IMG/VR virus record: IMGVR_UViG_3300012936_000076
Coordinates: 1-33,692 of that record
DNA length: 33,692 nt
Source: a virus
Direction: 5' to 3' (one strand)
The notes under the pieces were generated by a model. The model made no database searches. It was not told where the DNA came from and worked only from the letters and a program-made list of their open reading frames with translations. The translations under genes were made by a program, and so were the position numbers. Shown here piece after piece: positions 6,389 to 31,479 of this stretch. The first letter of the stretch is position 1; every line of letters begins with the position of its first letter.

Positions 6389-6418
6389 TTGTAAAAGCAT
6401 TTTTAGTGTCACTATATT
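6389..6418 (+). promoter_or_regulatory. Candidate sigma70-like promoter before the polymerase gene
   Basis: TTGTAA at 6389-6394 and TATATT at 6413-6418 are separated by 18 bases. The -35 box is the same TTGTAA seen before the SSB and RecA genes. The -10 box lies only a few bases before the ATG at 6424, so a transcript from it would be almost leaderless, which makes the call weaker. Confidence 0.3.
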
Positions 6419-6423
6419 TGATT

Positions 6424-7503
6424 ATGCTTAAAAGAAACTTTGATAAAATCAAGACAAAGAATCTAATATTGCCTTCTGAATACAATAGAAAGGGTAATCA
6501 AAAAATTATTGCACTTTCAAATGATGGTGTAGACTTAGATATTTGTAAAATAAACACTTATAGAACTATATCAAATCTAGATAAAATAAAAGATTACAGA
6601 CTTTATTTTGATAGATTCTGTGAAGAGTTAAACATAACTGAGAGACGAGTTAGATGGGATCTGTTGGTAGGTAAGAAAAAGTGTGATAATTTCGACAAGA
6701 TTTTACTTAAAGATTTAAGATTTTCTATAGATAAAGTAACAACGTATCATACAGAAATATTGCCAAAAAGATCTGTTTTATACCAAAACCTTACTCAAAT
6801 TAAAGATTCTAAAGGTACAGACTTAGAAGTCCCCGTGTACTCACATGCAGGAGTTACTGGAAGAACAACAATTAAAAAAGGTTTTAATTACTTGACTTCT
6901 AAAAAAGAGTTTCGTAAAAGTTGTAAATCAAAAACAGATGGTAATATTCTAGTAAGCATAGATTTTAAAGCTTGTGAACCAAACTTGTTTTTAAGATCTA
7001 TTGGAAGAGAAGTATCAAACCCAGACATTTATGAGTATCTTTCTTCTGAGCTTGACTTAGATGTAAAAGATAGGAGCACACTTAAACGAGGTATTTTATC
7101 AGTACTTTACGGAGCATCAGACAGCACGTCAAGCAGAATTTTAGGGAGTAATAAAAAGACTTTAGACAAGATAAAAGAATTTTTTAAGATAGAAGAAATA
7201 GAGGCAGAGTTAAAAGAAGAGTTTAGTAAAAGCGACACAATATACAATCTTTACGGGAGGCCAATTCACTCAGATAAAAGTATACTTAACAAATGGATTC
7301 AGTCATCAGCAGTAGATTTTTGTAGTTTGGCATTTTTAAATTTTGTGGAAGAGTTTAATTTAGATGTCTGCTATTTAGTTCATGACGACATGGTCGTTGA
7401 TGTTGATCAAGAAATGTATGAAAAAATTAAAGACGTGAAAGAACTTTATGAACCTATATCAAAGTTAACTTTACCTGTAGAAGTTACAAAGATAAGTGCC
7501 TAA
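6424..7503 (+). CDS. Family A (Pol I-type) DNA polymerase core without exonuclease domain
   Basis: A 359-residue protein with the palm and finger motifs of family A polymerases. Motif A is SIDFKACEPNLF with Asp180 and Glu185. Motif B has the exact spacing R217-xxx-K221-xxx-L225-xxx-Y229-G230 (E. coli Pol I R754, K758, F762, Y766). Motif C is LVHDDMV with His320-Asp321-Asp322. The N-terminal ~175 residues would supply the thumb; there is no 3'-5' exonuclease domain, and the motif A to B distance is shorter than in Pol I. Residue 225, which corresponds to Phe762 of E. coli, is leucine, a variant known from many environmental phage polymerases. I chose the ATG at 6424; a GTG at 6406 would add six residues, and neither has a clear ribosome site. 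It lies between baseplate genes and the replication block. Proofreading, if any, must come from another gene or the host. Confidence 0.85.
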   Translation: MLKRNFDKIKTKNLILPSEYNRKGNQKIIALSNDGVDLDICKINTYRTISNLDKIKDYRLYFDRFCEELNITERRVRWDLLVGKKKCDNFDKILLKDLRFSIDKVTTYHTEILPKRSVLYQNLTQIKDSKGTDLEVPVYSHAGVTGRTTIKKGFNYLTSKKEFRKSCKSKTDGNILVSIDFKACEPNLFLRSIGREVSNPDIYEYLSSELDLDVKDRSTLKRGILSVLYGASDSTSSRILGSNKKTLDKIKEFFKIEEIEAELKEEFSKSDTIYNLYGRPIHSDKSILNKWIQSSAVDFCSLAFLNFVEEFNLDVCYLVHDDMVVDVDQEMYEKIKDVKELYEPISKLTLPVEVTKISA

Positions 7504-27497: not shown

Positions 27498-27511
27498 CCT
27501 TAACGAGGTTA
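27495..27511 (+). promoter_or_regulatory. Hairpin covering the ribosome site of the MBD4-like glycosylase gene
   Basis: TAACCT (27495-27500) can pair with AGGTTA (27506-27511) around TAACG. The ribosome site GAGG (27505-27508) lies in the 3' arm, and the 5' arm starts with the stop codon of the J-domain gene. A ribosome ending translation there would open the hairpin, so this looks like translational coupling. It is only six base pairs, so the effect may be modest. Confidence 0.4.
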
Positions 27512-27514
27512 GCT

Positions 27515-27934
27515 ATGTCTCCTTACGGGCTTTTGCAAGAAGAAATAAACTATGATCCGTGGAAGATTTTTGTTTGCTGTATATTTTGCAACTTGACAAA
27601 AAGAGTTTCAGCCGAACCTTACTTCAGACAAGTTTTAAGATTGTGGCCTCAACCCTCAAAACTAGCATATGCTAGCGAATCTGAAGTAGCTGCAGTTATA
27701 AAACCTCTTGGCCTATCTAAGCGTCGAGCAAAAGCGCTTGTCAGAATGTCAAAAGATTATCTATCAAAAGAGTGGCAAGATGATCCAACTAAGCTTTACG
27801 GGATTGGAAAGTACGGATCAGATGCTTATAAGATTTTTTGTACTCCCTTTTGGAAAGAAGTAGAACCAAAAGATGGAGCTTTGGTAAACTATCACAACTG
27901 GTTAAAGGAGTTTGAAGATGCCAGAAGGACCTGA
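27515..27934 (+). CDS. HhH-GPD DNA glycosylase, MBD4-like (thymine/uracil type)
   Basis: A 139-residue stand-alone DNA glycosylase that reads like the catalytic domain of vertebrate MBD4. In order: SPYGLLQEEINYDPWKIFV (residues 2-20), VIKPLGLSKRRAKALV (61-76), the helix-hairpin-helix LYGIGKYGSDAYKIF (94-108), and VEPKDGALVNYHNWL (116-130), where Asp120 matches the catalytic Asp560 of human MBD4. There are no clustered cysteines, so it lacks the iron-sulfur cluster of endonuclease III. MBD4 removes T or U opposite G, and related damaged pyrimidines. One change is visible: human MBD4 has LNRT where this protein has CNLT (Asn26-Leu27-Thr28), so the DNA-probing arginine is replaced by leucine. 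It overlaps the Fpg/Nei-like gene by 17 bases, so the two glycosylases are made together. Confidence 0.85.
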   Translation: MSPYGLLQEEINYDPWKIFVCCIFCNLTKRVSAEPYFRQVLRLWPQPSKLAYASESEVAAVIKPLGLSKRRAKALVRMSKDYLSKEWQDDPTKLYGIGKYGSDAYKIFCTPFWKEVEPKDGALVNYHNWLKEFEDARRT

Positions 27935-28748
27935 ATGCGCAGCTACTGCACAGTCAATTAACAACTTTATGACCGATAAAATCTTAACTAATGTTGAGGT
28001 TTTGTCAGGAAGGTATACTAAAAAGTCGCCTCAAGGGTTAGACTGTTTTAAAGCTATGCTTCCTATAAACTGTGCCGGTTGGGGATCAAAAGGTAAGTTT
28101 ATTTATGGCGGTTTTGGCCCGGGAGGATCTGAAATACAGTGTTTTGTGTGGAATACATTAGGCATGTCAGGATATTGGTCTTACAGCGAGAAAAAACATT
28201 CTCGTGTAAGGTTTGATTTTGAAGACGGATCTTCAATCTGGTACACAGATACTAGAAACTTTGGTACTCTAAAGTTTGCCATGAATTTTGAAGAAACTCA
28301 AGAAAAGCTACTTCAGCTTGGACCAGATCCTCTTACTCATGACATACACATAGACGTATTTAAGGATCGACTTTTTAAGAAAAACAGAAAAGGTGAAAAG
28401 ACAATTTGCGAAGCTCTAATGAATCAAAAGACTGTCGCAGGGGTAGGAAACTATATTAAGGCTGAAGTTCTTTGGCTTTCAAAAGTTTCACCACTTAGAA
28501 CTGTCAACAGTCTCACTGACGAAGAAGTAATTTCGCTGAGAGACAATATCCAGTCAGTTATTAGAACTTCTTTTCAAAACGGAGGAGCCACTATTAAAAG
28601 CTTTTACGGCGCAGATGGGTCAAAAGGTACATATTCAAGCAAGTTTTTAGTGTACAATCAAAAGCTTGACCCTTATAATAATAATGTAGTTAAAACTAAA
28701 ACTCCTGATGGCAGAACGACACATTGGGTACCACAAATTCAAAAATAG
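27918..28748 (+). CDS. Fpg/Nei-family DNA glycosylase/AP lyase with zincless finger
   Basis: A 276-residue base-excision enzyme. The N-terminus is MPEGPE, giving the catalytic Pro2 and Glu3 after Met removal; this fixes the start at 27918, with AAAGGAG seven bases before it. A helix-two-turn-helix DNA-binding segment is at about residues 169-192 (NQKTVAGVGNYIKAEVLWL). The C-terminal hairpin (about 245-276) keeps the finger arginine in DGRTTHWVP but has lost all four zinc cysteines (LDPY, NNNV, WVPQIQ). Zincless fingers are known in NEIL1, plant and fungal Fpg, and Mimivirus Nei. These enzymes excise oxidised purines or pyrimidines and cut the strand by beta/delta elimination, so this one could also process abasic sites left by the MBD4-like enzyme beside it. 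Confidence 0.9.
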   Translation: MPEGPECAATAQSINNFMTDKILTNVEVLSGRYTKKSPQGLDCFKAMLPINCAGWGSKGKFIYGGFGPGGSEIQCFVWNTLGMSGYWSYSEKKHSRVRFDFEDGSSIWYTDTRNFGTLKFAMNFEETQEKLLQLGPDPLTHDIHIDVFKDRLFKKNRKGEKTICEALMNQKTVAGVGNYIKAEVLWLSKVSPLRTVNSLTDEEVISLRDNIQSVIRTSFQNGGATIKSFYGADGSKGTYSSKFLVYNQKLDPYNNNVVKTKTPDGRTTHWVPQIQK

Positions 28749-28980: not shown

Positions 28981-29358
28981 ATGAATTGCAACCTGCAAAA
29001 AATGTTTAAACTTAGAAATGAGTTTATCTCTGAAATGAGAGAAGCTCGACCTGGATCTTATCCAGATTTGCCACTTAATCTAAGTAAGAAAAATTCTCAA
29101 CAATTCTGTAGAGATTTGGCCCTGAGGGGTGTTGAAGAAATGTTTGAAGCACTTCAGCACTTGAAAAACTGGAAGCCTCACAGAATGACTGAGTTTAACG
29201 AAGGGCCTGATAGGGAAGAGTTCTTAGAAGAAATAGTTGATGCATTAAATTATTTTTTCTCTCTTCTCATCGCATCAGGTTTTAATGAGGACGATCTTTA
29301 TGAATCTTATGTCAGGAAGCATGAGATCATAATGAATAGGTTGAAGGAAGGTTATTAG
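28981..29358 (+). CDS. dUTPase/MazG-like nucleotide pyrophosphohydrolase (all-alpha)
   Basis: A 125-residue all-helical NTP pyrophosphatase. The metal site is visible as Glu53-xx-Glu56 in GVEEMFEALQHLKNW and Glu84-xx-Asp87 in LEEIVDALNYFFSLL. The following GFNEDDLYESYVRKHEIIMN, with RLKEGY at the end, is the ending of dimeric dUTPases and phage dCTPase/dUTPases. It would hydrolyse dUTP (or a related dNTP) to the monophosphate, supplying dUMP to the ThyX downstream and keeping uracil out of DNA, in line with the neighbouring glycosylases. The fold is confident; dUTP specificity is inferred. It overlaps the next gene by one base. Confidence 0.75.
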   Translation: MNCNLQKMFKLRNEFISEMREARPGSYPDLPLNLSKKNSQQFCRDLALRGVEEMFEALQHLKNWKPHRMTEFNEGPDREEFLEEIVDALNYFFSLLIASGFNEDDLYESYVRKHEIIMNRLKEGY

Positions 29359-30495: not shown

Positions 30496-31479
30496 ATGCC
30501 AATTAATAAGTCGCTTACGCCTGTTACGTTACCGATGGATTTAAAGTTTGACCAAGCTCCATCAACAACGTTCACCAATAACCTTCGTGCTCTCGGTGTT
30601 GAGCTAGTTGATCACCCAACGAGATCACAAGCACTCAACGTCGCATGGCAGTACGTGAAAGCAACGTGGGCCGATCATCATGATGAGACCAATCCTTCAA
30701 CTACTTCTATGAAGGAACTTTCTCAGAATCTTGAAGATGTCTTAAACTTTAGAGCGCTTCCAACTCCGATGGAGTGTCTAGGGTTTACTTTTAAATTAAG
30801 CGGCCTTTCTTTCCAAGAAGTTACACACATTATTCGACACAGAGCAGGTTCTTTCGCAGCGCAATGCACAGGTGATAGAGACCTTCGTGATGACGACGCA
30901 GTTATTCCTGAAGCAGTAGAAAACTCTCCAGAATTTTTACGTCGATACATGGACATTGTAAGAGATTCAAAGCAGCTTTACGCAGATATGACTGACTCAA
31001 AAGATGTGTCTATGATGGACGCTAGGATGATCTTACCTAAGTGCATGACATCTTTCTACCTTATGCGCATGAATCTCAAAGATCTGCTCGGATTCATCCG
31101 ACAGCGCCAAGATCGACAGATTCAACCTGCTGCTGATAATATTCTTGCAGCGTACATGGCCCGCGAACTAATTCGTGTTCTTCCCGAGGCTTCTACAGCA
31201 ATCAACTTTGAAAAGCCTGACATGCATTATGTTAAGACTTTTAGAGTCAAGGAAGGTGACGGATTTACTTCAAGAGGTACAAACTTGTACTGGCCCGAAC
31301 CCAAGAACGATATCTTTGAGTTTCATCCTGATGACACCATCTACCAGGCTCGCCGCGAAGAGATTAACGGTACAAACAACCCTGGAACGCTGACAGTCTT
31401 CGAAGATATCTGGGAAAGTACAATGAAAGAAATTGACGAAATGAAAGATAACTATGAAACATTTATGGAGAGAAGATAA
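30496..31479 (+). CDS. thyX: Flavin-dependent thymidylate synthase (ThyX), divergent
   Basis: A 327-residue ThyX-family enzyme, which would methylate dUMP to dTMP using methylenetetrahydrofolate and FAD/NADPH. The signature is IIRHRAGSFAAQC: Arg114-His115-Arg116 followed by seven residues and then Cys124, where the family has serine (RHRx7S). A second conserved segment, FIRQRQDRQIQPAADNILA (about 198-216), matches the ThyX region near its catalytic arginine, although the usual AQxE reads IQxA. The protein is longer than the common 220-260 residues, with an extra N-terminal part and a ~70-residue C-terminal extension. The altered signature leaves open a changed substrate, for example another pyrimidine. 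It follows the dUTPase-like gene cluster and overlaps the next gene by one base. Confidence 0.85.
   Translation: MPINKSLTPVTLPMDLKFDQAPSTTFTNNLRALGVELVDHPTRSQALNVAWQYVKATWADHHDETNPSTTSMKELSQNLEDVLNFRALPTPMECLGFTFKLSGLSFQEVTHIIRHRAGSFAAQCTGDRDLRDDDAVIPEAVENSPEFLRRYMDIVRDSKQLYADMTDSKDVSMMDARMILPKCMTSFYLMRMNLKDLLGFIRQRQDRQIQPAADNILAAYMARELIRVLPEASTAINFEKPDMHYVKTFRVKEGDGFTSRGTNLYWPEPKNDIFEFHPDDTIYQARREEINGTNNPGTLTVFEDIWESTMKEIDEMKDNYETFMERR

Follow-up and report, generated by a model that had tools for sequence, protein, structure and literature searches.

MBD4 is discussed as an animal and plant enzyme, and the locus described here raises the question of whether a virus encodes an enzyme of the same type and, if so, which lesions it would repair. 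The locus is situated in a stretch of 33,692 nucleotides, the complete span of the IMG/VR virus record IMGVR_UViG_3300012936_000076 that was analysed, which we call the window. A first-pass annotation, made from the sequence alone, had described the gene product as a phage-borne MBD4-like mismatch glycosylase. Our reading, with a probability of roughly 0.75, is that the gene codes for a phage-encoded monofunctional glycosylase of the MBD4 family that would repair deaminated cytosine, with the product of an overlapping Fpg/Nei gene serving as AP lyase.

Identification of the Glycosylase Gene

The open reading frame and its upstream signal are as follows.

27505..27508, + strand: GAGG, Shine-Dalgarno-like motif 6 nt upstream of the glycosylase ATG
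27515..27934, + strand: gene of an MBD4-type HhH-GPD glycosylase, 139 aa (PF00730; MBD4 match with E-value 3e-33 and Z 23.5)

The frame 27515-27934 starts with ATG; the opposite strand is interrupted by stop codons and has no open frame. The protein scored above the cut-off of the Pfam family PF00730 (HhH-GPD). In a phmmer search of PDB, human and mouse MBD4 were the top matches (E-value 3e-33, residues 2-133), followed by MutY at about 2e-4. The identity to the human MBD4 region 443-573 was 43.5% over 131 aligned residues, and every sequence block named by the first-pass annotation as MBD4-like was present. With the family profile, MBD4 was matched over the full length with an E-value of 9e-50, compared to only partial matches of MIG and endonuclease III at 1e-13; the respective scores were 171 bits for MBD4 and 54 bits for MIG. 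All NCBIfam equivalog models stayed below their cut-offs for the window glycosylase, and PHROGs had no family for it.

The methyl-CpG-binding domain is absent from the 139-aa protein, which consists of the catalytic domain alone. Judged by its sequence, the protein is therefore MBD4-type and not MBD4 as such.

We found that dN/dS ranged from 0.02 to 0.15 in nine of the ten homologue pairs for which it was computable, with a value of 0.32 in the remaining pair; for the window and the homologue L001 it was 0.10. Since dN/dS was low in most pairs, the open reading frame is not a chance one. Purifying selection acts on the phage glycosylase family.

Predicted Fold and Active Site

A model of the protein was built by AlphaFold from 68 window and viral-contig sequences, with the mean pLDDT of 95.2. 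When the model was compared with known structures by Foldseek and VIA-align, 16 MBD4 entries ranked first, with TM scores of 0.90-0.95, Z of 22.9-23.5 and rmsd of 1.0-1.1 Å; complexes with G:T and G:5hmU DNA were among the top structures. MIG, MutY and endonuclease III appeared at Z of about 13-14 and rmsd of 4-6 Å (13.8 and 4.7 for MIG).

A maximum-likelihood tree was rooted with Nth, MutY and MIG-like proteins, and in this tree the window family and MBD4 are separate from Nth, MutY and MIG. The first-pass annotation had named a superposition on MBD4, as well as an HMM search with a tree, as ways to check its family call. In the former, the predicted fold was closest to MBD4 (Z 23.5, rmsd 1.0 Å); in the latter, the protein grouped with MBD4. 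The question of whether endonuclease III or MutY could be the nearest kin is thus answered in favor of MBD4 by sequence, structure and rooted tree alike. That the biochemical class of the protein is an MBD4-type glycosylase we consider highly probable.

Three groups of codons are of interest with respect to the active site.

27590..27598, + strand: codons of Asn26-Leu27-Thr28 (NLT), equivalent to Asn467-Arg468-Thr469 of human MBD4, the DNA-intercalating loop
27794..27817, + strand: codons of LYGIGKYG, residues 94-101, the helix-hairpin-helix turn, with Tyr100 at the place of the catalytic Lys
27872..27874, + strand: codon of the predicted catalytic Asp120 (Asp560 of human MBD4), invariant in 107 of 107 members

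In the alignment, human residues N467, R468, L508, Y540, D560 and K562 correspond to N26, L27, L67, Y100, D120 and A122 of the window protein. Tyr100 occupies what we take to be the place of the catalytic Lys in bifunctional relatives, as located in endonuclease III. Asn26, Gly66, Gly98, Tyr100, Phe108, Asp120, Leu123 and Tyr126 were identical in all 107 distinct phage members, so that the catalytic Asp, which had been reported as retained in the window protein, is retained throughout the family. The absence of the iron-sulfur cluster also extends to the family, as none of the 107 members has four Cys residues after D120. At the position of Gln449, Val was present in 51 of the 107.

The residue Arg468 enters the helix in MBD4 (PMC5406665). 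The first-pass annotation had pointed to its replacement by Leu27 as a feature of the window protein. The replacement is real, but it is not peculiar to this protein: among the 107 distinct phage homologues the position was occupied by Gln (53), Leu (50) or Cys (4), and never by Arg. In the animal enzyme the intercalating Arg468 makes contact with DNA; it is not a defining mark of the fold family.

The change of Arg468 to Leu27, together with the change of Lys562 to Ala122, is what one could expect from an inactive relative that only binds DNA. We regard such a loss of activity as very unlikely, given that the catalytic Asp and Tyr are invariant in 107 of 107 members, that dN/dS is mostly within 0.02-0.15, and that Gln at the place of Arg468 is the usual plug residue of endonuclease III and MutY.

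The Overlapping Fpg/Nei Gene and the Gene Run

The glycosylase gene is followed on the same strand by genes of repair and nucleotide metabolism.

27918..28748, + strand: gene of an Fpg/Nei glycosylase/AP lyase, 276 aa from ATG 27918, with a zincless finger; overlaps the glycosylase gene by 17 nt
28981..29358, + strand: MazG-like nucleotide pyrophosphohydrolase, part of this run of genes and also found near the glycosylase homologue in 13 loci; its connection with the glycosylase is presumed
30496..31479, + strand: divergent ThyX-like thymidylate synthase, likewise part of this run of genes (44.8 bits at a cut-off of 87.9; PF02511 1.9e-19; RHRxxS kept)

The Fpg/Nei protein has the N-terminal Pro-Glu, the H2TH domain, and a terminal hairpin that carries Arg and has no zinc-finger Cys. 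Its best matches in PDB were the entries 3a42-3a46 and 3vk7/3vk8 with an E-value of about 1e-45, which we take to be mimivirus Nei1 and the closest solved relative; bacterial Fpg followed at 3e-21. A zincless finger is known for the mimivirus and NEIL1 enzymes (PMC3188539). We also observed that the protein matches phrog_21295, a family of unknown function in PHROGs, while Pfam, NCBIfam and PDB lead to Fpg/Nei of the mimivirus Nei1 type.

In 12 related loci, too, a gene of the Fpg/Nei family either overlaps the glycosylase gene or directly adjoins it, and in two others it is located 1-4 kb downstream. The H2TH family was detected in 12 of 38 member records, compared to 27 of 50,697 isolated-phage records matched by a relative's Fpg/Nei protein at E 1e-5; as methods and collections differed between the two counts, they serve as a rough guide only. 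The first-pass annotation, correct in its call of the glycosylase, had overlooked both this overlapping gene and the dCMP-modifying enzymes beside relatives that are described below.

The action of MBD4 leaves abasic sites; an adjoining AP lyase therefore makes a sensible two-step unit, and it is plausible that the Fpg/Nei protein is the partner of the MBD4-type glycosylase. In the proposed sequence of events, the glycosylase would flip T, U or 5-hydroxymethyluracil facing guanine out of the helix, and Asp120 would cleave the glycosidic bond to leave an abasic site. The Fpg/Nei product would then open the strand as AP lyase, and a polymerase and a ligase would complete the repair.

Elsewhere the window carries genes of a phage-type RNR, a DnaB-like helicase, UvsX/RecA, a gp32-like protein and a head protease. 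At 6406-7503 we observed a short DNA polymerase A (365 aa), whose match to its family is confined to the C-terminal part. In the member phages L185-L186, and in the flanks of L011, L013 and L019, there are genes of GroEL, a eukaryotic-type phosphomannomutase, UvdE, superoxide dismutase and sigma-70-like proteins.

The gene neighborhood bears on two other explanations. DNA-damaging enzymes directed at the host are known from many phages, and the glycosylase could similarly excise bases of the host DNA, or marks used by host defence. Such a role is very improbable for genes found in runs of replication and nucleotide metabolism, beside Fpg/Nei and RNR/helicase genes, and for a mismatch enzyme, as these normally spare intact duplex DNA. 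On the other hand, the position of family members among genes of nucleotide metabolism would also be compatible with DNA hypermodification. The aGPT-PPlase/AADT proteins of hypermodified phages are HhH-fold proteins proposed to alter modified thymidines, and a protein of the same fold could have been recruited here for a similar task. However, a match to the aGPT-PPlase Pfam families was absent for the window protein at E 1 and for 32 members at E 0.1, and since the protein matches MBD4 over its full length and retains the catalytic Asp, this explanation is highly improbable.

Association With Modified Cytosine

For the preferred reading, repair of deaminated cytosine, the genes near the family members in other phages are informative. 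Thymidylate synthase (TS) family genes were present within 6 kb of the glycosylase gene in 19 of 106 loci, and position 177 was Asp in all 18 sequences where it was readable. Among 38 records searched, a PF00303 match was found in 16; each of the 16 had an Asp177-type copy, with one having an Asn-type copy as well. With Asp in place of Asn at TS position 177, the enzyme acts on dCMP instead of dUMP, and the TS of metagenomic contigs that have modified cytosine is mostly of the Asp type (PMC8670742, PMC6400193).

In a small control of other phages, the glycosylase was found in one of seven with an Asp177-type TS and in three of 35 with an Asn177-type, i.e., it was not enriched. Of those three, one phage has, in addition, a divergent TS-like gene, which we read as Asp-type from its motif; the other two, nearly identical to each other, have the Asn type only, and their contigs are incomplete. 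The link from the glycosylase to the Asp177-type TS is strong, while in the reverse direction no enrichment was seen in this small control.

The Stenotrophomonas phage AXL1 is a member of the family (record L004) through its protein gp65, which was otherwise reported only from the Xanthomonas phage Xp12 (PMC9206674). In Xp12, 5mC replaces all C, and the DNA of AXL1 resists most enzymes whose sites contain C or G (PMC9206674). Xp12 (MT664984) shares a genus with AXL1 and DoCa6 (PMC11946847); its copy of the glycosylase is as reported in PMC9206674.

C5-methylases were found in four of 37 records. Besides their Asp177-type TS genes, the member phages L201, L202 and L203 encode divergent proteins that resemble C5-methylases and bear the motifs PCAGLSQ and ENAP, a gene set that possibly serves a layered modification of cytosine.

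Deamination of 5mC and 5hmC produces T and 5hmU opposite G, which are MBD4 substrates, and this gives a phage a reason to keep an MBD4-type enzyme. The enzyme would undo cytosine deamination in phage DNA, chiefly where the C5 group (5mC or 5hmC) yields T or 5hmU, products that a UNG-type uracil-DNA glycosylase leaves in place. We think it fairly likely that deamination repair is the purpose, with modified cytosine as the favored cause for the family as a whole. Phages with modified cytosines would then share with vertebrate genomes both the mutational problem and its solution.

Another purpose would be general uracil repair, where the enzyme replaces UDG and removes U that arises opposite G by deamination of plain cytosine, the modified cytosine being incidental. 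We observed no UDG-family gene in any of 37 member records; to our knowledge most phages have no UDG, and as an argument for a repair role this absence is weak. The records searched for the window's own clade gave no PF00303 enzyme and no PF00145 methylase; a MazG-like, a nucleoside deoxyribosyltransferase and a divergent ThyX-like gene occur in the clade instead. The plant MBD4-like enzyme, for its part, is more efficient in the excision of uracil than of thymine (PMC6728418). Still, the Asp177-type TS genes adjoin the glycosylase gene in several lineages, and a member is reported in Xp12, a phage with full 5mC. We regard general uracil repair as possible but doubtful. For the phage of the window, where we infer the purpose from its relatives, a cytosine-directed activity of the ThyX-like protein is conceivable; in other member phages, the gene near the glycosylase is instead an Asp177-type TS.

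Distribution of the Family in Phages and Cells

By alignment of the first relatives, 590 candidate stretches were drawn from IMG/VR, and at least 533 of them encode a relative; the best 80 of the 533 were retained. Eight records of isolated phages had a family member, namely Bradleyvirinae and their relatives (phages of Xanthomonas, Stenotrophomonas and Janthinobacterium) and the cyanophage S-TIM54. None of 32 members had a convincing family match in PHROGs. Of 29 member records, 16 were found to have a large terminase gene, including a record of 137 kb in which the 95% relative of the window is situated; therefore, these are tailed phages.

When 84,980 prokaryote species were scanned with a single pattern, and thus with limited sensitivity, six loci were obtained; judged by the neighboring genes, five were on phage-like contigs and the sixth, in Actinomarina, among bacterial genes. 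We also applied the profile to 1,187 genomes, sampled evenly across the four phyla in which finds had been made; only the four seeds were detected at E 1e-20, and none of the 1,183 others. In five seed genomes, the profile separated family members, with at least 147 bits, from other HhH-GPD proteins, with at most 52. The MBD4-type family is common in phages and almost absent from bacteria and archaea. The family call of the first-pass annotation stands, although its scope was too narrow: the protein belongs to a large phage family.

Such a distribution suggests that phages with modified cytosine need MBD4-type repair too. We found no publication on phage relatives of MBD4 as such in a literature search, which covered few subscription journals. 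The relationship of the window glycosylase to MBD4 suggests a function for an unannotated family of phage genes.

Several other sequences came to our attention in these searches. The MBD4-type gene of an uncultured Actinomarina (L154, 4959-5348) has bacterial neighbors and is placed in the tree with cyanophage-type sequences. Matches in Thermus plasmids were rejected as family members; the one that was read resembles MIG and ends in an Fe-S Cys motif at the C-terminus. On a Thermus thermophilus plasmid (L008, 2001-2309), an unannotated MIG-like Fe-S glycosylase gene is located directly after a DNA cytosine methyltransferase gene. An HhH-GPD protein of an insect granulovirus (BFVD U5KBB0) had TM of 0.93 over 138 columns with the window model; it is probably a separate capture.

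Position of Human MBD4 in the Tree

Human MBD4, the sole eukaryotic sequence in the main tree, joined the window's clade, which comprises nine phages, with support of 100/97, within a wider phage clade (100/97). In the AU test, a topology with all phages together without human MBD4 was rejected (p = 0.024); for a 23-row phage clade from which human MBD4 was kept out, significance was not reached (p = 0.118). When a provisional Arabidopsis sequence was added and long rows were removed, the support for human MBD4 with the window's clade fell to 91/71, and the Arabidopsis row itself was placed with weak support (90/67). The identity to human MBD4 reached 54% in phage L017 and 52% in L013. The gene order of the L013 contig, as we read it, resembles that of the window, with RecA, exonuclease, helicase, RNR, ClpP-like and ThyX-like genes.

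These data place animal MBD4 inside the diversity of the phage sequences, and they are compatible with either direction of transfer. Phages with modified cytosines may be the original home of MBD4. As a tentative scenario, of which we are more doubtful than convinced, the MBD4 domain would have arisen in tailed phages that guarded C5-modified cytosines, with eukaryotes taking it from a phage-like source and reusing it with 5-methylcytosine. With human MBD4 nested among phage sequences and the family rare in cellular prokaryotes, a phage origin is now testable. In addition, enzymes as small as about 140 aa are possible tools for the detection of G:T and G:5hmU.

Comparison With Known Systems

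Endonuclease III and MutY have the HhH-GPD superfamily in common with the window protein. Their standard forms carry an Fe-S cluster, and endonuclease III has a catalytic Lys. MIG, found in archaeal and bacterial mobile elements, has the HhH-GPD fold and the role of a G:T glycosylase beside a C5-methylase. It differs from the window protein by a C-terminal Fe-S Cys motif, which the latter does not have, and is more distant in structure (Z 13.8).

AXL1 gp65 and its counterpart in Xp12, annotated as ENDO3c, belong to the window family, where they form a distant branch (33% identity for AXL1). They were published without recognition of the MBD4 relationship, and Asp141 of gp65 was proposed as a possible catalytic residue (PMC9206674). 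An Fpg/Nei gene was not found in the AXL1-related records W01 and W02. The plant enzyme AtMBD4L is, like the window protein, a catalytic domain without the MBD (PMC6728418).

The closest likeness is to the catalytic domain of metazoan MBD4 (MED1). The window protein differs from it in having no methyl-CpG-binding domain, in the changes of Arg468 to Leu and Lys562 to Ala, and in being encoded by a phage gene that overlaps Fpg/Nei. What the two have in common is the fold (rmsd 1.0 Å), an alignment over the full length, the residues Asp560, Tyr540, Leu508 and Asn467, the absence of the Fe-S cluster, and the short C-terminal end.
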